Made by a program: the position numbers and the translations under genes | Shown: positions 22,784 through 54,727 of the stretch, in pieces | Position numbering within the stretch: position 1 is the stretch's first letter | Layout of the letters: every line of letters starts with the position of its first letter | Notes under the pieces: generated by a model | The model's database searches: none | What the model was told of the DNA's origin: nothing | The model's input: only the letters and a program-made list of their open reading frames with translations | Assembly: GCF_004331345.1 (NCBI RefSeq) | Contig: NZ_SJJZ01000001.1 | Coordinates: forward strand, 682,001-746,000 | Origin: Kribbella soli | Lineage (GTDB): Bacteria; Actinomycetota; Actinomycetes; Propionibacteriales; Kribbellaceae | Length of the DNA: 64,000 nucleotides | Direction: 5' to 3'

Positions 22784-22846
22784 CGTCCTTGAGCACCCAC
22801 CAACCGTTTTCGGGCGGCCCAAATGGTTGGTGGGTGCTCAAGGACG
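22784..22846. terminator. 22-bp perfect inverted repeat at the end of the metallophore-type operon
   Basis: Arms 22784-22805 and 22825-22846 are perfect reverse complements (22 bases; core TTGAGCACCCACCAACC) around a 19-base centre that can itself pair further (GTTT/AAAT and GGG/CCC). The right arm contains the stop codon of the MFS gene on the minus strand (22838-22840). It would form a strong terminator hairpin for the operon, though no T-tract follows. It could also be a repeat element. Confidence 0.6.
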
Positions 22847-24058
22847 CGGTTCAGTGATGCGGAGAGCGAGGAGGACTGCGACGAGGGTGATGCCTGCGAA
22901 CGTGATCGCCGTACCGGGGTAGCCGCCGAGGCCCAGGCCGAGGCCGCCGATCGCGGCGCCGAGGAACGTGCCGAGACTCATGCCGGCCGCGTTGACACTG
23001 AGCGCGGATCCACGGAGGTCACCGCTGCGACGGACCAACAGCGTGGTGACACAGGCCGCGACCGTCGCATGGCTGGCACCCATCAGAGCGGTGAGGAGCA
23101 GCGTGAGCGGGAGCGTCGGCGAGAAGTAGAACGCGGAGACCGCGAGCAGGGCGACGGTGATGCCGCCGACGAGCAGCCGTTCGGGGGTGATCCACGGGCG
23201 ATCGGTGGCGAGGTACCGGCCGGAGAGGAGGTTGCCGAGGAAGAACGACGCGCCGCTGAGCGACCAGACCAGCGCGAACCAGCCCGGCGCGAGGTCGAAC
23301 TTCTCGTCGTAGAACGCCGCCAGGTAAGCGAGGTAGCCCATGAAGGCAGCAGTCCGCAGCATCGCGATAGCAAGCAGCGGGAGCGCCCCAGGGATCCGAC
23401 CGAGCTCGCGATACGTCGCCAGGTAGCTCATTCGCTCCCTGTTGGTGATCGGCGCCTTCCGCCCGCGCCCGCGCCAGAAGAAGGCCGCCGCCAGGACGAG
23501 CGAGATCGCTGCCGCCGCCATCAGGTTGCCTCGCCAGCCCCAGATGAGTCCCGGCCCGGCGAGGACCGGAGCGGCCAGCATCGCCATCGCCGACGTCGTC
23601 GCGGACACCAGCGTCGCCGCGCGACCCGCCGCTGCAGGCGACCTGAACCGGTCCGCGGCTGCAGCCCCGATCGACGGCGCGAGGATCGACGTCGACGCCC
23701 CGATCAGCAGGCAGAACGCGGCCAGCGCAAATACGTTGCCCACAGCCCCCAACGCCGCCGAGACACCCAGCAGTGCGAGCCCGCCCGCAGCGACCAGCTC
23801 CCGCGGTGCGCGGTCCATCAGCGGCGCCAGAACCACACCGACAGCTAGCGCCGCTAGCCCTCCGAGTCCGCGCAGTCCACCGATCTCCGCGACGCTCCCG
23901 CCGGCCGCCTCGGAGATCGGCACCAGATACATCCCGAACACCGTGAACGGGATCAGGCTCACCGTCGACGCCAGCAAGAACGGCCACAGCCGCCGGGCCA
24001 TCCGAAGATCGCCCGGGACTTCCGCCGCGGGCGCGGTGAGGTTCTGCTGCGTGGTCAT
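22838..24058 (-). CDS. MFS transporter, predicted metallophore exporter
   Basis: 406 residues with twelve membrane helices of the major facilitator superfamily (e.g. PFLLASTVSLIPFTVFGMYLV; the loop 2-3 motif reads LAPLMDRAPRELVAAGG). Last gene of the eight-gene operon; its ATG overlaps the stop of the DUF364 gene (ATGA). Metallophore operons such as those for staphylopine pair an MFS exporter with a nickel/peptide-type ABC importer, so export of the product made by the three enzymes is the inferred role. Uptake or a drug substrate cannot be excluded. The operon's end hairpin covers its stop codon. Confidence 0.85.
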   Translation of the reverse strand: MTTQQNLTAPAAEVPGDLRMARRLWPFLLASTVSLIPFTVFGMYLVPISEAAGGSVAEIGGLRGLGGLAALAVGVVLAPLMDRAPRELVAAGGLALLGVSAALGAVGNVFALAAFCLLIGASTSILAPSIGAAAADRFRSPAAAGRAATLVSATTSAMAMLAAPVLAGPGLIWGWRGNLMAAAAISLVLAAAFFWRGRGRKAPITNRERMSYLATYRELGRIPGALPLLAIAMLRTAAFMGYLAYLAAFYDEKFDLAPGWFALVWSLSGASFFLGNLLSGRYLATDRPWITPERLLVGGITVALLAVSAFYFSPTLPLTLLLTALMGASHATVAACVTTLLVRRSGDLRGSALSVNAAGMSLGTFLGAAIGGLGLGLGGYPGTAITFAGITLVAVLLALRITEPRP

Positions 24059-24864
24059 GTATCCGTCCTGTAGCGATAGAGGCTGCTCGGGCGGGAGCTG
24101 AACTGGGAAAAGGGAAAGGGTTCCGCGGACAGCGCGGTGACGCCGGCACCGAGGAACGCACGGGCCACCGCACTGCCGGTCTGAGCGTAGATGGCCAGCG
24201 GCTTCGATTGCTCACGGCAACGAGTCAGGAGTACGTCGAAACTGCCGTTGGACAGCGTCATACCAGTGGCTACGACCGCGTCGGCCGCGTCGATCACCTC
24301 GGTCATGTCGCGGGACACAGGCAGGCCGGAGGCGGTCTCGCGGAGGTTGAAGTCGCACGGGAGACAGCTCCCGCCGCGTTCCGTGATCGCGTCGACGAGC
24401 GGGTTCACGACCCCGATCAGCGCGACTTTGGTGCCTTCGGCAACGTCGAGCAGTCCGGCGACGGCCGCGTCACGGGCGCGGGCGCGAACGTCCGGCGTAC
24501 CGGCGGGGAGGACGACTTCCTCGGCGTACGGCGCGGTGTGGTGCGGCTCGACCGCGGCCAGGTAGGCGTCGAGTGCGGCGATCCGCACGGCCAACGGGTC
24601 GTTGGAGGAGAGTACGTCGGCGAGCGTGCGGCCGGAGGTGTCGGCGCAGTACGCCGGGTCGAGCTCACCCGACTCGAAGGAGCAGGCGCCGAACACCTCT
24701 CGCACTCTCAACAGCACGTAGTAGTTCCGGTACGTGACGTCGGCGCCGGGCAGGCGGGTCGTGTGGTGCAGCCAGAACGCGCTGGTGATGTCGAGGTCGG
24801 CCGGTGACGGACCACGCGATCCGGCGAGTACCTCTGCGGTCAGATCAGCCACTGATGCGCCCAT
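24055..24864 (-). CDS. DUF364 (putative heavy-metal chelation) Rossmann protein
   Basis: 269 residues. The C-terminal half matches DUF364 (PF04016): VALIGVVNPLV (148-157), then VVATGMTLSNGSFDVLL (197-213) and YAQTGSAVARAFLGAGV. The N-terminal half corresponds to the DUF4213-type partner domain. Candidate metal ligands are unusually many: HH at 33-34, HH at 108-109, C61, C73 and CLPC at 167-170. No enzyme activity is established for the family; the name rests on structures. Overlaps the upstream PhyH gene by 25 bases and the MFS gene by four. In this operon it may complete, load or release the metal chelator; that is inference. Confidence 0.85.
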   Translation of the reverse strand: MGASVADLTAEVLAGSRGPSPADLDITSAFWLHHTTRLPGADVTYRNYYVLLRVREVFGACSFESGELDPAYCADTSGRTLADVLSSNDPLAVRIAALDAYLAAVEPHHTAPYAEEVVLPAGTPDVRARARDAAVAGLLDVAEGTKVALIGVVNPLVDAITERGGSCLPCDFNLRETASGLPVSRDMTEVIDAADAVVATGMTLSNGSFDVLLTRCREQSKPLAIYAQTGSAVARAFLGAGVTALSAEPFPFSQFSSRPSSLYRYRTDT

Positions 24865-25616
24865 GGGAGATCGGCCAGCCTTTCGGGGTTGTACTGCAGG
24901 GCGGACAGTTCGGGGCGGCCTGTGGGCTGGAAGCAGTACAGGAGGGAGCGACGATCCGTGGCCGTCCGGTTCGGCGCGGAGCGGTGCACCATCAGGCCGG
25001 GGAACATCAGGACCGAGCCGGCCGGGGCCTCCACCGTCACCGCGCGGGCCTCGTCGACGGCCGTTGGATCCACCAGCAGTCCGGTCGGGTCCAGCGGATC
25101 ACGACGTACCGGACCCTCCGAGGGACTGCCTGGGATCAGGGTCATCGCGCCGTTCGCGGCGGTGTTGTCGTCGAGCATCACGATCGCGGTCGCGATGTCG
25201 TACGCCGCCTCGCCGCAGCACCCGTACCAGTACGGGAAGTCCTGGTGCCACGCGAATTCCGACCCGACCCCGGCGCGCTTGAAGTTCAGCTTCGCCGTGA
25301 ACCGCCCTGCCGTTGCCCCGATCAACGAACTCATGGGCTCGACCAACCGCGACACACTCCACAACGCTTCCAGCGCCGGATGCAGATGCGCCACCGGCGA
25401 CAGACTGCGCACCGTCTTCCCAACCGCATCCGGCTCCCAGTGGACCGTTGTGCCGTGCACCGTCTCCAGTCGGTGGCCGTCCGGCCAGACGTTCACCGTC
25501 GTCTCGCCGGCTTCGGCCGCGGACACGACCTCCGCGTGCACCTGCTCGACCACGTCGCGCAGCCGATCCACCTCGGTTGCCGTGAACAACTCCGGAAGCA
25601 GCACATACCCACTCAC
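24840..25616 (-). CDS. Phytanoyl-CoA dioxygenase (PhyH) family protein of the metallophore-type operon
   Basis: 258 residues, Fe(II)/2-oxoglutarate oxygenase fold. Facial triad: H124 and D126 in FAWHQDFPYW, and H211 in GLMVHRSAPNRT; an Arg at 222-223 is placed for 2-oxoglutarate. Starts with GTG at 25616, nine bases after the PLP-enzyme gene ends, and overlaps the DUF364 gene by 25 bases. Members hydroxylate amino acids or lipids. Hydroxylation of an amino-acid-derived chelator is a reasonable guess here. Compare the separate PhyH in the sugar operon (9943), with which it shares only the fold signature. Confidence 0.88.
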   Translation of the reverse strand: MSGYVLLPELFTATEVDRLRDVVEQVHAEVVSAAEAGETTVNVWPDGHRLETVHGTTVHWEPDAVGKTVRSLSPVAHLHPALEALWSVSRLVEPMSSLIGATAGRFTAKLNFKRAGVGSEFAWHQDFPYWYGCCGEAAYDIATAIVMLDDNTAANGAMTLIPGSPSEGPVRRDPLDPTGLLVDPTAVDEARAVTVEAPAGSVLMFPGLMVHRSAPNRTATDRRSLLYCFQPTGRPELSALQYNPERLADLPWAHQWLI

Positions 25617-25625
25617 AGGATCACA

Positions 25626-26684
25626 TTAATGCGACGGAGTCGCAGATGGAAACTCCTCGCGCCGGACCTGCGCGGATTCCCGCCGGTCCCACGACATCGC
25701 CGACCACGGCACCGCGAGCTCGTCCAGCGAATCGATCTCCCGCGGCCGCATCGACGCCATCGGCCGCGCCTCGGCATGCCGGGCGAAAGCGGACTCGACG
25801 TACCGCGTCCCGGTGTCCGCAGCCAGGAAAACGTGTTTCCGCCCGCGGTCGCAGTTGTGCTCCCACAACGCCGACAGGTACGCCGCCCCGGCGGACAGCC
25901 CCGCGAACACGCCGGACGTGCGGAGCAGATCCACCGCCGCCGACATCGCGTAGTCGAACGAGACCCAGTGCAACCGGTCGTACAGCTCGTGCCGCACGTT
26001 CCGGAACTCGATCGAGCTCCCGATCCCGGCGATGATCATCTCCGGATCCTGCGTATGCCCGGCCCCGAACGTGATGCTCCCGAACGGCTGCACGCCGACC
26101 AGGTTCACGTCCCGTCCGCGCTCCCGCAGGTACGCCGCGATCGCGCCGGTGGAGGCGCCCGTACCGACGCCGCCGACCAGACAGAGCGGACCCGTCGGCA
26201 CCAGCTCCGCGACGAGATCCGCGATCGCGCCGTACCCGAGGTAGTGGATGTCGTCGTGGTACTGCTGCATCCAGTGGTACGTCGGGTTGTCGCGGAGGAT
26301 CTCGCCGATCCGGCGGACCCGGAGGTTCTGGTCGAGCTGCAGGTTGTTCGACGACGGCACCTGTTCGACGGTCGCGCCGAGGATCTCGAGCTGGATCTTC
26401 AGTGTCCGGTCGACCGTGGTCGAGCCCACGATGTGGCACTTCATCCCGTACCGGTGGCAAGCCAGCGCGAGCGCGTGCGCGTAGATCCCGCTCGAGCTGT
26501 CGATCAGCGTGTCACCGGGCCGGACCTGCCCGGTCTCCAGGAGCCGGCGGACGGCGCCGAGTGCGGAGTACACCTTCATGGTCTCGAACCGCAGGCAGAT
26601 CAGGTCGTCCCCGGTGCCGGAACTGACGCGGATCGGGTCCGGGTCCTTGATGGCCTCCGCCAGGTGGTCGTGCAGTCGCGTCAT
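25626..26684 (-). CDS. Cysteine-synthase-fold PLP enzyme (SbnA-like)
   Basis: 352 residues, fold-type II PLP enzyme. Seen: LRFETMKVYSALGAV with K37 as the likely Schiff-base lysine, DSSSGIYAHALALA (62-75, the substrate-binding loop where cysteine synthases have TSGNTG), and VGGVGTGASTGA (170-181, PLP-phosphate loop). Family members catalyse beta-replacement on serine derivatives; SbnA of staphyloferrin B and similar enzymes make N-substituted 2,3-diaminopropionate precursors this way. The changed substrate loop argues against ordinary cysteine synthesis. Overlaps the ABC ATPase gene by four bases (ATGA). In context it probably supplies an amine/carboxylate building block of a chelator. Confidence 0.85.
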   Translation of the reverse strand: MTRLHDHLAEAIKDPDPIRVSSGTGDDLICLRFETMKVYSALGAVRRLLETGQVRPGDTLIDSSSGIYAHALALACHRYGMKCHIVGSTTVDRTLKIQLEILGATVEQVPSSNNLQLDQNLRVRRIGEILRDNPTYHWMQQYHDDIHYLGYGAIADLVAELVPTGPLCLVGGVGTGASTGAIAAYLRERGRDVNLVGVQPFGSITFGAGHTQDPEMIIAGIGSSIEFRNVRHELYDRLHWVSFDYAMSAAVDLLRTSGVFAGLSAGAAYLSALWEHNCDRGRKHVFLAADTGTRYVESAFARHAEARPMASMRPREIDSLDELAVPWSAMSWDRRESAQVRREEFPSATPSH

Positions 26685-28213
26685 CGGCGCGGTTCGCTCC
26701 TTGAGTCGGTGGTCAGCACGGGCGGAGAGTGGGGGTCGCCGATCCGGGCGGCTGTGACCAGCCGCCGGGTCAGCTCGTGGTGCGGTTCGGTCGTGATCGT
26801 CGCGGGCGGGCCTTGCTCGACCACCCGGCCGGCGTCGAGGACCAGGACCCGGTCCGCGACGGCTGCGACCAGGCGCAGGTCGTGGCCGATCCAGATCAGC
26901 GCCGTACCGCGATCCTTGAGCTCGGTCAGAAGGTCGAGGACGAGCGCCGTACCGTGGTCGTCGAGGGCAGTAGTGATCTCGTCGCAGATCAGTACGTCGG
27001 GGTTCGCCAGCACTGCGCGCGCAAGGGCGGCTCGTTGCAGCTCGCCGCCGGACAGGCGGCTCGGCGGGCGTGCGGCGGTGATCGCGGCGACACCGAGGCG
27101 CGCGAGTATGGCGACGGCTTCGGCGTGGGCCTGGTCCGGTGTGAGTCCGCGGAGGCGTTGCGCCGTACGGGCGACCTGCTGGTCGACGGGGCGGCGTTCG
27201 TCGAAGGAGCCGCGGACCTCCTGCCAGACGTACTGGACGCGGCGGTGCTGATCGCGGGTGCGCTTCCGCAGGACCGGGAGCGGTTCGTCGTCGAGCAGGA
27301 TGGTGCCGGTGTAGCGCTCGTGCAGGCCGGCCAGGCAGCGGGCCAAGGTCGTCTTGCCGCTGCCGGAGCGGCCGACGACCCCGAGGCAGGCGCCGGCGCG
27401 GACAGCGAGGTCGGCCTCGTGCAGGACGACGTCGCGGCCGCGGGGACGCAGCGAGGCAGACAGGTTCATTGCCGTTAGCAACGGCTGCCCGGCGGCGGAG
27501 GTTCCCGCCGTCTCCAGGTCCGGTGCAGGTGGTAGTACGTCGGTGGCGATCACCTGACCTGCATCGAGCACGACGACGCGGGACGCGAGGGCGCGGACCA
27601 GGTCGAGATCGTGACTGAGCAACAAGATGCCGAGGCCGGTGGCGGCGAGCTCCCTGAGTTCGTGGACGAGTTGCAGCCGGGTGATCGAGTCGAGGCCGGT
27701 GCTGGGCTCGTCGAGCACGAGGACCTTCGGGCGACAGGTGAGCGTCTGCGCGAGTGCGACTCGTTGCCGCTGGCCACCGGAGAACTGATGCGGAAAACGT
27801 TTGAGGGTTGCGCGATCTCCGGGCAGCTGAGCCGCGCGGACGGCTTCGCGGGGATCGCCGTCGTGCAGCTTCGCGAGCTCCTGCAGCGTCGTACCGATGC
27901 GCCGGGCCGGATTCAGTGCACTGCCGGGATGCTGCGGCATGTAGGCAACGACTCGGCCGCGTACCGTCGACGCCGCAGCGGTCACTCCGTTGCCATCAAC
28001 AACCAGTTGCCCGGCGACCTCGACCCGTCCGGCGAGTCGTACGCCGTCACCGTGTTCACCTAGCAGCGCTAGCGCCGAGGTTGTCTTCCCCGACCCGGAG
28101 ACGCCGACCAGAGCGGTCACCTCCCCCGCGACGACCTCGAACGAGACCCCATCCACCAGCACCGCGTCCCCCGCGGTCGCGGACAGCCCAGTCACGCGCA
28201 CCACCAGCGTCAT
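26681..28213 (-). CDS. Fused double ATPase of a nickel/peptide-type ABC importer
   Basis: 510 residues with two complete ABC domains. First: Walker A GVSGSGKTT (37-45), signature FSGGQ (144-148), Walker B VLVLDEPSTGLD. Second: Walker A GRSGSGKTT (281-289), signature LSGGE (387-391), Walker B VLICDEITTALDD. It corresponds to the separate DppD/DppF or NikD/NikE subunits joined in one chain. Coupled by ATGA overlaps to the permease gene before and the PLP-enzyme gene after. Start ATG 28213. Confidence 0.93.
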   Translation of the reverse strand: MTLVVRVTGLSATAGDAVLVDGVSFEVVAGEVTALVGVSGSGKTTSALALLGEHGDGVRLAGRVEVAGQLVVDGNGVTAAASTVRGRVVAYMPQHPGSALNPARRIGTTLQELAKLHDGDPREAVRAAQLPGDRATLKRFPHQFSGGQRQRVALAQTLTCRPKVLVLDEPSTGLDSITRLQLVHELRELAATGLGILLLSHDLDLVRALASRVVVLDAGQVIATDVLPPAPDLETAGTSAAGQPLLTAMNLSASLRPRGRDVVLHEADLAVRAGACLGVVGRSGSGKTTLARCLAGLHERYTGTILLDDEPLPVLRKRTRDQHRRVQYVWQEVRGSFDERRPVDQQVARTAQRLRGLTPDQAHAEAVAILARLGVAAITAARPPSRLSGGELQRAALARAVLANPDVLICDEITTALDDHGTALVLDLLTELKDRGTALIWIGHDLRLVAAVADRVLVLDAGRVVEQGPPATITTEPHHELTRRLVTAARIGDPHSPPVLTTDSRSEPRR

Positions 28214-29049
28214 CGCGCACTCTCCACGAGGCGGCGTGAGCGGTGGACGAGGCGGTCGGCGAGGAGGTTGAAGCCCAACGTGAACGACACGAGGAGAAGC
28301 GCCGGGGCGAGCACCGACCACGGTTGGAGGAGCAGGCCCTCGCGGTTGCGGGACACGCTGACCGCCCAGTCCGGCGCGGTCGGGCTCAGCCCGAGCCCGA
28401 GGAAGTTGACCGAGGCGACGAGGAACACCGCAAGCGTGATCCGCGTACCGAGATCCGCCGCGACCGGGCCGAGAACCGAGCGTCCGACGTACCCGAGCTG
28501 GATCGTGAGCCACGACTCCCGTTGCATCCGGAGCGCCTCGACCACCGGCCCGCTCGCCGCATCCAAGGCAGCCGCTCGGACGAGTCGTGCGACGGTCGGG
28601 ACGTTCACCATCGCTACGGCGACGGTGATCGCCAGCGCGGACGCGCGCCAGCCGACGGCGACCACGCTGATCACGAGGAGGGACGGGAGCGGCAGCAGTA
28701 CGTCGAGCGGCCGCATCATCCCTTCGTCCAACCACCGATGCCGGGTCGACGCGGCCGTCAGCCCGATCAGCCCGCCCACGACATACGCCAGCACCACCGC
28801 ACCGATCGCCATCCCCAAGGCCGACCGCCCGCCCACGAGCAACAACCCCAGAACGTCCCGGCCCAACCCATCCGTCCCCAACACGCCCTCAGACGAGTAG
28901 GGCAGGCCGGGCCTCGCGTCGTACGGCAGGAATGGTCCCAGCACCGCAACAACCAACGGCACCGCAACCAATCCCACCGACACGCCCACCGCCGCGCCGC
29001 GCCGCATCCGCAGGCGTCGACTGCTGGCGACACCCTCACGCACGTTCAT
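28210..29049 (-). CDS. ABC permease, DppC/NikC type
   Basis: 279 residues, about six membrane helices. The N-terminal half contains YSSEGVLGTDGLGRDVLGLLLVGGRSALGMA, the conserved DppC/OppC loop, and the C-terminal part has the coupling helix near AALDAASGPVVEALRMQRESW. Starts at ATG 29049 within the stop of the DppB-type gene (ATGA). Forms the channel with that protein for import of the ligand bound by the operon's lipoprotein. Confidence 0.92.
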   Translation of the reverse strand: MNVREGVASSRRLRMRRGAAVGVSVGLVAVPLVVAVLGPFLPYDARPGLPYSSEGVLGTDGLGRDVLGLLLVGGRSALGMAIGAVVLAYVVGGLIGLTAASTRHRWLDEGMMRPLDVLLPLPSLLVISVVAVGWRASALAITVAVAMVNVPTVARLVRAAALDAASGPVVEALRMQRESWLTIQLGYVGRSVLGPVAADLGTRITLAVFLVASVNFLGLGLSPTAPDWAVSVSRNREGLLLQPWSVLAPALLLVSFTLGFNLLADRLVHRSRRLVESAR

Positions 29050-29984
29050 CGGAGCGCTTCCGTTCGAGGGACGAGGCGGTTGCACACGAGGTCTGCGGCG
29101 AGGTTGATGAGGAGGGCCGCGATGGCCAGCACGAGGGTCAGGCCCTGGACGGTCGGGATGTCTCGGGTTTCCACGCCGTCCACGAGGGCCGTGGCGAAGC
29201 CGGGGATGGCGAAGATGGCTTCGACGACCAGGACGCCGCCCAGGAGCGTGTCGCCGGTGCGGGCCAGTTCTTGTACGCCGGGAACTGCCGCGTTCGGGAG
29301 GACGTGACGCAGCAGGAGTTGGCGGCGCGGGACACCGAGCCGTCGAGCCTGCGTCACGTACTCGGCGTTCAGAGCAGCAACCGTCCCGGCGCGGACCTGA
29401 CGCGACAACAGGCAGACGGTCCGGCCGAAGAGTACGGCGATGGGGAGGATCAACAAGGCCGGCGAGGAGAGGAGGTTGCCGCCGATCCATGTCGCCGGCA
29501 ACCAGCCGAGTTTCAGCGAGAACACGGCCACCAGGACCACCGCGATCACGAAGTCCGGAATCGCCGACAACGCCAGCGTGATCGACGTGATCGTACGGTC
29601 GACGCGCCCGTTCTCACGAGTACCCATCACGATGCCGAGGGCAACGGCCAGCGGTACGACGATCGCTAGCGTTGCCAGCGTGAGTACGAGCGTCGCGCCG
29701 ATCGAGTTCCGCACGATGTCGGCCACCGGTCCCCCGCTGATCAACGACGTACCCAGATCACCCGTCACGACATTGCCCAACCAGTGCACGAACCGCTCGA
29801 CAGGAGGTTGGTCGAGACCGAGCTCCGCCCGAAGCGCAGCGACCTGCGACGGCGTCAGCGTCTCGGTGAACCGCAAGTCCGCCGCGTCCCCCGGCAGCAA
29901 CGACGTCAGGACGAACACCAGCACCGAGAGCACAGCCAACTGAACGATCGCGAGCCCCGCGCGTTGAGCGGCGTACGACCGCAT
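29046..29984 (-). CDS. ABC permease, DppB/NikB type
   Basis: 312 residues, six membrane helices. Typical DppB start (QRAGLAIVQLAVLSVLVFVLTSLLPGD), then LRAELGLDQPPVERFVHWLGNVVTGDLGTSL, and the coupling region NAEYVTQARRLGVPRRQLLLRHVLPNA. The ATG at 29984 directly follows the TGA of the binding-protein gene. Peptide- and nickel-type permeases are not separable by sequence alone. Confidence 0.93.
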   Translation of the reverse strand: MRSYAAQRAGLAIVQLAVLSVLVFVLTSLLPGDAADLRFTETLTPSQVAALRAELGLDQPPVERFVHWLGNVVTGDLGTSLISGGPVADIVRNSIGATLVLTLATLAIVVPLAVALGIVMGTRENGRVDRTITSITLALSAIPDFVIAVVLVAVFSLKLGWLPATWIGGNLLSSPALLILPIAVLFGRTVCLLSRQVRAGTVAALNAEYVTQARRLGVPRRQLLLRHVLPNAAVPGVQELARTGDTLLGGVLVVEAIFAIPGFATALVDGVETRDIPTVQGLTLVLAIAALLINLAADLVCNRLVPRTEALR

Positions 29985-31526
29985 TCAGGCCAGCCACACC
30001 TTGTCGAACCGGCCCTGGTCCAACGTGTTCGGCGGCACCGCCTGCACCCCTTGCAGCTTCGACGAGACCGCGATCAGGTAATCCGGCAGACCCCACGCGA
30101 GGATCCCGCCTTCGTCTCGCACAGTCTTCTGCAGTACGCCGTACTTCGCCGACCGCTCGTCCTCGGACGTCACCGCCCGCGCCGCCGCGAACGCGGTATC
30201 GAACGCCGGCCGCCGCCAATGCGTCACGTTGAACGGCGAATGCGACAGCAACCGATCGGTGACGTACTGCGGAATCGGCATCGCCCCCGACCGATGGTTG
30301 CCAATAACACCCTTCGTCAGCAGGTCCTTCGCGTACGTCTGCGGGCTCCCGGTCGTCACCTTCAACCGCACCCCGGCCTCGGCGACCTGCTCCGCGAACA
30401 ACGTCGCCGCCTCGACGAATCCGGCCGACGCGTCCGCGGTGAAGATCTCCACCTCCTTGCCCGCCAGCCCGGCCTTCTTCAGCAAGCTCCTCGCCTGGTC
30501 GACATCACGCTCCCGGGCCGGCAGATCGGCCGGGTAGTACTGATATCCCTTGCCGAACAGGTCGTTTCCCACCTCACCCCGCCCGGCGAGTACGACGTCC
30601 ACCAGCCGCTGCCGGTCCGCGACCAGCTTGAACGCGAGCCGTACGTCGGGATTGTCGAACGGCGGCCGGTCGACCTTCATCACGAACGCCTGCATCGTGC
30701 TGGCCTTCGCCGCCACGATCCGCACCGTCTTCCCGGCCTCCGCGGTCCGCGCGAACGTCGCGGTCATGTCGTTGGCGTACTCCGCCTGACCACCTTGGAC
30801 AGCGTTCGCCCGCGCCTCGGAATCGGCCGACAGGACGTGCAGCTCCTCGATCCGCGCGGGCCCGTCCCAGTAGCCGTCGTACCGCGAAGCGACCATCGAG
30901 CGGCCGGCCTCGAAGGACACGTACCGGAACGCGCCGGTGCCGACGGGCTTGGCCGGATCCTTGAACCCGTTCCGCACGATCTGCGTGCCGATTCCTGCCA
31001 GCAACGCGGGGAACTCCGCGTTCGCCTGGGTCAGCACCAACTCGACCGTCGCGGGCCCGATCGCCTTGCTGCGCTTGAGATCCAGCGTCGCGAGCGACGA
31101 CTGCGCGACCCGCTCCGGTACGGCGGGATCCACGATCCGGGCAATGCTGTACAGCACGTCCTCAGCGACCAGTTTCGCGCCGTCGTGGAAGGTCGCGTCG
31201 CGCAGGCTGAACCGCCAGGTGGTCGCGGTCCCGTCGTGCTCCCACTTGGACGCGAGCCGCGGTACCGGCTTCAGATCCGGGCCGAGTTCGACCAGCTTCT
31301 CGTAGATCGCCTTGTGCCGCGCGATGTCCACGAACAGGCTCTGCACGTGCGGGTCGAGCACCTCCTTCGCCCCGCCACCGGCGTACACGGCACGTAACCG
31401 CCCGCCCTGCGTGGGCTGCGCGGCCGCACCCCCGTCCGCCCCACATCCGGTGATCGCCGCCAGCCCGGCAACCCCCGCCATCCCCAGAAACCCACGCCTA
31501 CCCAAAGCCTCGGACACGCGCCACAT
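29985..31526 (-). CDS. Family 5 substrate-binding lipoprotein (peptide/nickel/metallophore type)
   Basis: 513 residues. N-terminus has RRGFLGMAGVAGLAAITGC: twin arginines and a lipobox (AITGC), so a Tat-type lipoprotein is likely. The mature protein is an SBP_bac_5 member: LDPHVQSLFVDIARHKAIYEKLVELGPDLKPVPRLASKWE, then WRFSLRDATFHDGAKLVAEDVLYSI. NikA, CntA and dipeptide-binding proteins share this fold. First gene of the eight-gene operon. Start: ATG 31526 with AAAGG upstream; GTG 31532 and a GTG at 31517 are alternatives. The Zur-like palindrome lies 12 bases before the ATG, so zinc-controlled transcription of the whole operon is inferred. Confidence 0.9.
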   Translation of the reverse strand: MWRVSEALGRRGFLGMAGVAGLAAITGCGADGGAAAQPTQGGRLRAVYAGGGAKEVLDPHVQSLFVDIARHKAIYEKLVELGPDLKPVPRLASKWEHDGTATTWRFSLRDATFHDGAKLVAEDVLYSIARIVDPAVPERVAQSSLATLDLKRSKAIGPATVELVLTQANAEFPALLAGIGTQIVRNGFKDPAKPVGTGAFRYVSFEAGRSMVASRYDGYWDGPARIEELHVLSADSEARANAVQGGQAEYANDMTATFARTAEAGKTVRIVAAKASTMQAFVMKVDRPPFDNPDVRLAFKLVADRQRLVDVVLAGRGEVGNDLFGKGYQYYPADLPARERDVDQARSLLKKAGLAGKEVEIFTADASAGFVEAATLFAEQVAEAGVRLKVTTGSPQTYAKDLLTKGVIGNHRSGAMPIPQYVTDRLLSHSPFNVTHWRRPAFDTAFAAARAVTSEDERSAKYGVLQKTVRDEGGILAWGLPDYLIAVSSKLQGVQAVPPNTLDQGRFDKVWLA

Positions 31527-31538
31527 CCTCACCTTTAG

Positions 31539-31553
31539 TGAAAACGATTGTCA
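31539..31553. promoter_or_regulatory. Zur-box-like operator of the metallophore-type operon
   Basis: TGAAAACGATTGTCA: a 7-1-7 palindrome with two half-site mismatches, AT-rich inside GC-rich DNA. It fits the actinobacterial Zur-box pattern TGAAAAYGATTTTCA with one change. The DmdR/IdeR iron box (TTAGGTTAG-type) does not fit. On the minus strand it reads TGACAATCGTTTTCA and contains a GACAAT that could be the -10 element, so repressor binding would block RNA polymerase directly. Confidence 0.65.
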
Positions 31554-31934: not shown

Positions 31935-32417
31935 CTACTCGTCGCAGTCGGGGGTGGCGCAGGTGTTGGGGAGGTTGGCCGCGATGCGGTTGAGGAGGGT
32001 GGTGAGCTGGGCCTGCTCGTCCGCGGTCAGGTGGTCGAAGAAGTAGGTGCGGACGGCGGCGACGTGGTCGGGGGCGGCGGAGTCGATCGCCTTGCGGCCG
32101 AGTGCGGTGAGGCGGATCATCGAGCCGCGCGCGTCGGAGGTGCATTCCTCACGGGTGACCAGGCCGCGCTTCTCCATCCGGCTGACCTGGTGCGACAGGC
32201 GGCTGCGTTCCCAGCCGACCGAGCGGCCGAGGTCGCGGGTGCGGAGCAGGCCGTCCTCGGCCTCGGACAGCGGGTGCAGCAGCGCGTAGTCGGCGCCGGA
32301 CAGGCCCGAGTTCGTGATCATCCGCGCCTCGAGCGCCCGCATCAGTTCGCGATGCGTGTCACGGTACGACTGCCAGAGCCCCGCCTCCTGCGCCCCGAGC
32401 CACTCCGGTTCCTTCAT
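31935..32417 (-). CDS. MarR family transcriptional regulator
   Basis: 160 residues with the MarR winged helix: LSGADYALLHPLSEAEDGLLRTRDLGRSVGWERSRLSHQVSRMEKRGLVTREECTSDARGSMIRLT, ending in a wing with the usual DxRG. The C-terminal CATPDCDE tail is Cys-rich and could bind metal or sense redox state. The promoter appears leaderless: TACAAT stands six bases before the ATG. TGACATGTCA overlaps the -35 region and is a candidate autoregulatory operator. Targets unknown; it is convergent to nothing and lies upstream of the copper genes' 3' end. Confidence 0.9.
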   Translation of the reverse strand: MKEPEWLGAQEAGLWQSYRDTHRELMRALEARMITNSGLSGADYALLHPLSEAEDGLLRTRDLGRSVGWERSRLSHQVSRMEKRGLVTREECTSDARGSMIRLTALGRKAIDSAAPDHVAAVRTYFFDHLTADEQAQLTTLLNRIAANLPNTCATPDCDE

Positions 32418-54310: not shown

Positions 54311-54727
54311 TCAGGTACGTCGTGCGCAGTCCGCGCACAGGCCCCAATAGATGACCTCGGCCTCGTCGATGACGAACCCGTGGTCGTCGGACGCGGTCAG
54401 GCAGGGCGCGTGCCCGACCGCACAGTCGACGTCGGCGATGGCACCGCACGATCGGCAGACAACGTGATGATGGTTGTCACCCACGCGCGATTCGTACCGC
54501 GCCACCGACCCCAACGGCTGGATCCGCCGCACCAGGCCCGCCGCTGTCAACGTGTGCAGCGAGTCGTACACCGCCTGGTGCGACGCCTGGGGCAATTCGT
54601 TGCGCACGGCACCGATAATCGAATCGGTATCCGCATGCGGATGCCCGTACACCGCGGCCAGCACTGCCAGCCGCGGCCGAGTCACCCGCAGCGAAACCCC
54701 ACGCAACAGCCCCTGAAGCTCCTCCAT
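54311..54727 (-). CDS. furA: FurA-type peroxide-sensing repressor
   Basis: 138 residues, Fur family. N-terminal winged helix (LRVTRPRLAVLAAVYGHPHADTDSIIGAVRNELPQASHQAVYDSLHTLTAAGLV), then the metal site NHHHVVCRSCG and the second Cys pair CADC near the C-terminus for structural zinc. The gene precedes katG, the actinobacterial furA-katG pair, where FurA represses both until oxidised. Start ATG 54727; the reading frame continues 15 codons upstream through the promoter. A TTCC-N9-GGAA motif lies between -35 and -10. Confidence 0.94.
   Translation of the reverse strand: MEELQGLLRGVSLRVTRPRLAVLAAVYGHPHADTDSIIGAVRNELPQASHQAVYDSLHTLTAAGLVRRIQPLGSVARYESRVGDNHHHVVCRSCGAIADVDCAVGHAPCLTASDDHGFVIDEAEVIYWGLCADCARRT

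Follow-up and report, generated by a model that had tools for sequence, protein, structure and literature searches.

The window, a stretch of 64,000 nucleotides from Kribbella soli, contains a coupled block of eight minus-strand genes (31526 to 22838) that quite probably serves as a zinc metallophore operon under Zur control in Kribbella, with a putative product and putative zinc binding. Most likely, the operon would provide for the synthesis, export and re-import of a small zinc-binding molecule. Its recurring core, computed directly from the window and related genomes like its gene order, gene families, conserved Zur-like box and optional PhyH gene, consists of two genes, coding for an SbnA-type PLP enzyme and a DUF364 protein, together with an exporter and an importer.

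Organization of the Operon

The block encodes a substrate-binding protein, two permeases, a fused ATPase, the PLP enzyme, a PhyH dioxygenase, the DUF364 protein and an MFS transporter (Table 1). Most junctions are overlaps of a few bases or gaps of less than 10 bp: ATGA overlaps join the ABC and PLP genes as well as the DUF364 and MFS genes, 9 bp separate the PLP and PhyH genes, and the PhyH and DUF364 genes overlap. The earlier note had described the PLP, PhyH and DUF364 genes as fused into one coupled block; the tight coupling is indeed seen, yet the block is larger than stated. The start codon of the substrate-binding protein was selected on the basis of the ribosome-binding site AAAGGTGAGG, and the best-scoring models for the importer proteins are those of NikA/B/C/D/E. 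A gene for a MarR-type regulator (31935-32417), retained in most Kribbella loci, is situated upstream of the operon.

Table 1. Features of the operon in window coordinates.
Feature	Position	Strand	Remarks
Zur-like box TGAAAACGATTGTCA / TGACAATCGTTTTCA	31539..31553	.	12 bp upstream of the ATG at 31526
Substrate-binding lipoprotein SBP_bac_5, importer	29985..31526	-	top named matches are NikA models
Opp/Nik-type permease 1	29046..29984	-	family/profile matches
Opp/Nik-type permease 2	28210..29049	-	family/profile matches
Fused double ABC ATPase, NikD/NikE-like	26681..28231	-	precise start uncertain
SbnA-type PLP enzyme, 352 aa, core enzyme 1	25626..26684	-	PALP match; nearest solved relative SbnA
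PhyH 2-oxoglutarate/Fe(II) dioxygenase, 258 aa, optional tailoring enzyme	24840..25616	-	PhyH match
DUF364 (PF04016) protein, 269 aa, core enzyme 2	24055..24864	-	Pfam match and AlphaFold2 model
MFS transporter, probable exporter	22838..24058	-	family match

The family assignments made earlier for the three enzymes hold, as each surpasses its Pfam cut-off (E-values of 1.5e-33 for PALP, 2e-25 for PhyH and 5e-12 for DUF364). Likewise, all motifs were located where the earlier note had placed them: K37 (within FETMK), DSSSGIYAH (62-70) and VGGVGTGASTGA (170-181) in the PLP enzyme, the triad H124/D126/H211 in PhyH, and HH (33-34), HH (108-109) and CLPC (167-170) in the DUF364 protein.

Recurrence of the PLP-DUF364 Pair

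With each species represented by one genome, 251 relatives of the DUF364 protein were identified, and for the best 80 of these 251, drawn from Kribbella, Streptomyces, Amycolatopsis and others, up to 10 kb of flanking sequence was read in either direction. The DUF364 gene is present in all 38 searched genomes of Kribbella (79-100% identity), named loci with 80-96% DUF364 identity belong nearly all to this genus, and in one family that includes Amycolatopsis, 156 of 390 genomes yielded a match. Almost all of the best 80 of the 251 relatives have a PLP enzyme nearby, and the pair is also found together in five relatives in which DUF364 identity drops to 40-44%. The exceptions are L065, a contig without a visible PLP gene, and L033, from a rearranged genome. 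The latter represents a split operon of K. sindirgiensis (L033 and L236), with the Zur box, importer and PLP genes on one contig and the PhyH, DUF364 and MFS genes on another; a loss of the PLP and importer genes was thus rejected for this species, since both are present, with their Zur box, on a contig other than that of DUF364.

The neighbors of the pair vary and include Opp/Nik or FecBCD importers, GHMP kinases, methyltransferases and ATP-grasp ligases. Three architectures can be distinguished. Type A, to which the window belongs, combines an Opp/Nik importer, the PLP enzyme, PhyH (present or absent), DUF364 and an MFS transporter that adjoins DUF364 in most relatives of this type; a methyltransferase is frequent in Streptomyces. 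Type B exhibits a divergent MFS gene, a FecB/FecCD/FecE importer, a frequent methyltransferase, DUF364, a GHMP kinase and the PLP enzyme. Type C (L139-L143, L172, L174, and L175), whose DUF364 proteins are 40-44% identical, contains an ATP-grasp amino-acid-ligase-like enzyme, DUF364, an SbnA-like PLP enzyme with the loop TSGTLG, an MFS transporter, SBP_bac_5 and Opp permeases, and frequently a methyltransferase. At L175, an additional dipeptide-epimerase-like gene was found, and CobW-like and Fur-like genes are adjacent. As all three architectures share DUF364, the PLP enzyme and transport genes, these parts form the common core. The three-enzyme core proposed earlier thus shrinks to the PLP enzyme and DUF364, PhyH being dispensable and repeatedly deleted in Kribbella.

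A Conserved Zur-Like Box and the Choice of Metal

In actinomycetes, Zur governs znuABC, COG0523 GTPases and metallophore clusters (PMC6103462). The whole genome of 8.8 Mb contains four sites with at most one mismatch to the Zur motif, one of which is the palindromic box of this operon; of the other three, two precede genes for ZnuA-type binding proteins and one precedes a CobW-type GTPase gene, while the reversed pattern yielded no site at this threshold in the same genome. Among the 80 relatives, a Zur-like box with at most three mismatches to TGAAAATGATTTTCA is found near the operon start in 68, and four more carry a box with four mismatches. The scanned stretches of the remaining eight loci, some of which are truncated contigs or rearranged, lack a Zur-like box. 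In 0.94 Mb of Markov-shuffled control sequence, no site occurred at three or fewer mismatches and one occurred at four. The operon is therefore predicted to be Zur-controlled. ZnuA genes are located close to some of the clusters (L053 and L110), and a weaker Zur-like site with four mismatches to the consensus is present in the window at 54465-54479.

An alternative reading is that of an iron or nickel/cobalt uptake system in which Zur control is incidental. The importer of the window scores best with the NikA/B/C/D/E models, and type-B clusters use FecBCD importers, which usually carry ferric siderophores or B12 and whose presence counts against the zinc reading. However, Opp/Nik-type transporters take up zinc-staphylopine as well, and scanning the 80 loci for other metal boxes revealed no DmdR/IdeR-like (iron) and almost no Nur-like (nickel) boxes, in contrast to the near-universal Zur-like box. 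Control by DmdR/IdeR or Nur was rejected on the basis of this essentially empty scan, and the uptake of iron, nickel or cobalt is considered unlikely.

The zinc metallophore reading invites comparison with staphylopine (cnt) and pseudopaline, which share with the window a single operon, an Opp-family importer, an MFS exporter and zinc-linked control. In contrast to these systems, the eight proteins of the window yielded no match to a nicotianamine-synthase-like enzyme or an opine dehydrogenase, and an opine-type metallophore was rejected for this reason.

The SbnA-Type PLP Enzyme

The solved proteins nearest to the PLP profile are SbnA of staphyloferrin B synthesis (3.9e-38) and CmnB of the capreomycin pathway, fold type II beta-replacement enzymes that are both tied to diaminopropionate chemistry. 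Nevertheless, the window protein reaches only 127.2 bits with the SbnA equivalog model TIGR03945, against a curated cut-off of 349.95, and has no SbnB partner. With the cysteine synthase/OASS models it scores 77-78 bits against cut-offs of about 344-351, and their TSGNTG motif is absent. The loop Asn that SbnA and cysteine synthases keep is replaced, as the loop reads SSSGIY (with I67) in 90% of the aligned relatives, type-C proteins being the main exception. It had been suggested earlier that this change alters the acceptor. In cysteine synthases, however, the TSGNTG loop grips the carboxylate of the amino-acid donor, so that the exchange of N for I67 would bear first on the donor side. SbnI is known to provide a phosphorylated donor for SbnA, and the GHMP kinase of type-B clusters could play such a part. 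The structure model of the PLP enzyme is of moderate quality (pLDDT 79), with residues 202-226 poorly modeled.

The PLP subfamily is not confined to this gene arrangement. In the genome G556, which we take to be that of Amycolatopsis japonicum, an orthologue with 61% identity to the window enzyme is located among genes for FecBCD, a methyltransferase and an ATP-grasp ligase (L224, 5399-11242), in a locus that contains neither DUF364 nor a Zur-like box. Consequently, the subfamily appears to serve more than one pathway, and the PLP enzyme by itself does not imply zinc.

The same genome harbors a Zur-box operon, presumably the EDDS (aes) genes, that encodes an SbnB-like OCD protein, an Orn/DAP-type decarboxylase and an SbnA-like PLP enzyme with an intact TSGNTG loop (L228, 4597-8029); its box is Zur-like with three mismatches to the consensus. 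A search of G556 for a DUF364 relative returned none (best E-value 0.48), whereas the eight genes of the window operon include neither an SbnB-like OCD protein nor a PLP decarboxylase. The window cluster is thus not considered to be of the EDDS type, and identity with EDDS was rejected because these two defining genes are missing, a comparison which assumes that G556 is A. japonicum and that its operon is aes. It is therefore extremely improbable that the window contains an EDDS-type zincophore cluster like aes, despite the Zur control (by a predicted box in the window), the SbnA-family PLP enzyme and the non-NRPS, amino-acid-derived zinc chelator (putative in the window) that the two would have in common. 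EDDS of A. japonicum is a Zur-controlled aminopolycarboxylate (PMC4993170; PMC6103462).

The DUF364 Protein as a Candidate Enzyme

To our knowledge, structures of DUF364 proteins have been available since 2010 with no reaction assigned. The window protein scores 46.1 bits against a gathering score of 23, its AlphaFold2 model is of high confidence (pLDDT 94), and the nearest solved fold is that of PH1506 (3npg; probability 1.00, TM-score 0.61-0.67). The same two-domain fold is found in Dhaf4260 (3l5o), yet identity to these structures is only 15%, and the window protein differs from them in having an assigned partner enzyme and a probable metal.

The two HH pairs and the CLPC motif had been regarded as an unusual set of metal ligands whose conservation among orthologues remained to be examined. 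An alignment of 112 relatives offers a divided answer: H33/H34 are retained in 92% and H108 in 96%, while position 109 is His in 23% (mostly Arg) and position 167 is Cys in 56%. Within the HH and CLPC regions, only C170 and D171 are invariant, and the invariant residues of the protein further include R37, Y45, N47, R53, G59, G201, M202, Q228, and E248. D171 is aligned with a Glu of 3npg, presumably equivalent to the conserved acid in the cleft of Dhaf4260, and DUF364 structures have been interpreted as those of enzymes (PMC2954201). Because of this alignment and the variability of H109 and C167, C170-D171 and the other conserved positions look like active-site residues, which fits the data better than a four-part zinc site, and the metal-ligand proposal for the most part fails. 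The loss of HH and CLPC among orthologues, named in the earlier note as grounds for refutation, is thus seen in part. An earlier prediction already assigned DUF364 proteins to metal-chelator synthesis (PMC2954201), and the open-access literature yielded no paper that names DUF364 together with metallophores and no description of the PLP-DUF364 pair.

These observations also bear on the idea that the DUF364 protein chaperones or stores zinc via HH and CLPC, next to a PLP enzyme that is a cysteine synthase isozyme, with no chelator being made. Although zinc-linked regulation and the presence of Cys and His residues would agree with such an arrangement, it is very improbable given the poor conservation of H109 and C167, the position of C170-D171 on the cleft acid of proteins interpreted as enzymes and the distance of the PLP enzyme from every cysteine synthase cut-off and from TSGNTG. 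Furthermore, the dedicated exporter and the variable tailoring enzymes (methyltransferase, kinase, and ATP-grasp) favor a secreted small molecule.

A Proposed Model for Zinc Acquisition

The best reading remains the one already sketched in the earlier note, a chelator derived from amino acids whose biosynthetic genes adjoin those of its importer, in keeping with the conserved Zur-like boxes, the kinship to SbnA and the exporter. From these features we infer zinc as the metal, the chemistry of the pathway and the directions of transport. Under zinc starvation, Zur would dissociate from its site at 31539, allowing all eight genes to be transcribed into a single message. The PLP enzyme would most likely form aminoacrylate from O-phosphoserine or O-acetylserine and join it to an amine, yielding an N-substituted 2,3-diaminopropionate. 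DUF364 may then catalyze the next, essential step (a condensation, hydrolysis or other change), PhyH, where present, could hydroxylate the product, the MFS protein would export it and the Opp/Nik-type ABC system would re-import the zinc complex.

In a broader proposal, toward which we lean slightly, the PLP enzyme and DUF364 would be the central pair of a hitherto undescribed class of zinc metallophores, distinct from the NRPS, opine and EDDS types and common in actinomycetes, in which DUF364 would represent a novel kind of chelator-forming enzyme and tailoring genes would be quickly swapped or lost. A large branch of DUF364 is now tied to a partner enzyme, a predicted regulator and a probable metal, which makes its function directly testable. 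We know of only few zincophores, and most detection rules known to us target NRPS, opine or aminopolycarboxylate (EDDS-like) genes; a two-gene signature of PLP enzyme and DUF364 would reveal many more zincophore clusters.

Repeated Loss of PhyH in Kribbella

By its triad and family score, the PhyH protein of the window qualifies as a dioxygenase, and a leucine hydroxylase is among its solved relatives (5nch, 2.3e-13). In 30 Kribbella genomes, the gene is intact in 13, fragmentary in four (L007, L013, L020, and L021) and reduced to a scar between the PLP and DUF364 genes in 13 (L003, L004, L006, L011, L012, L015, L016, L017, L024, L025, L027, L028, and L030). Mapped onto a tree built from the DUF364-MFS region, the state of PhyH requires seven changes, six of which are forced by well-supported branches, the exact number being soft as two rows of the tree are very long branches. 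PhyH is thus optional, with at least six independent changes within Kribbella. Its repeated loss inside one genus suggests shifting selection on the structure of the putative chelator, perhaps as a defense against piracy. The breakpoints of the scars differ, and most scars retain the end of PhyH with the GAAAGG ribosome-binding site of DUF364.
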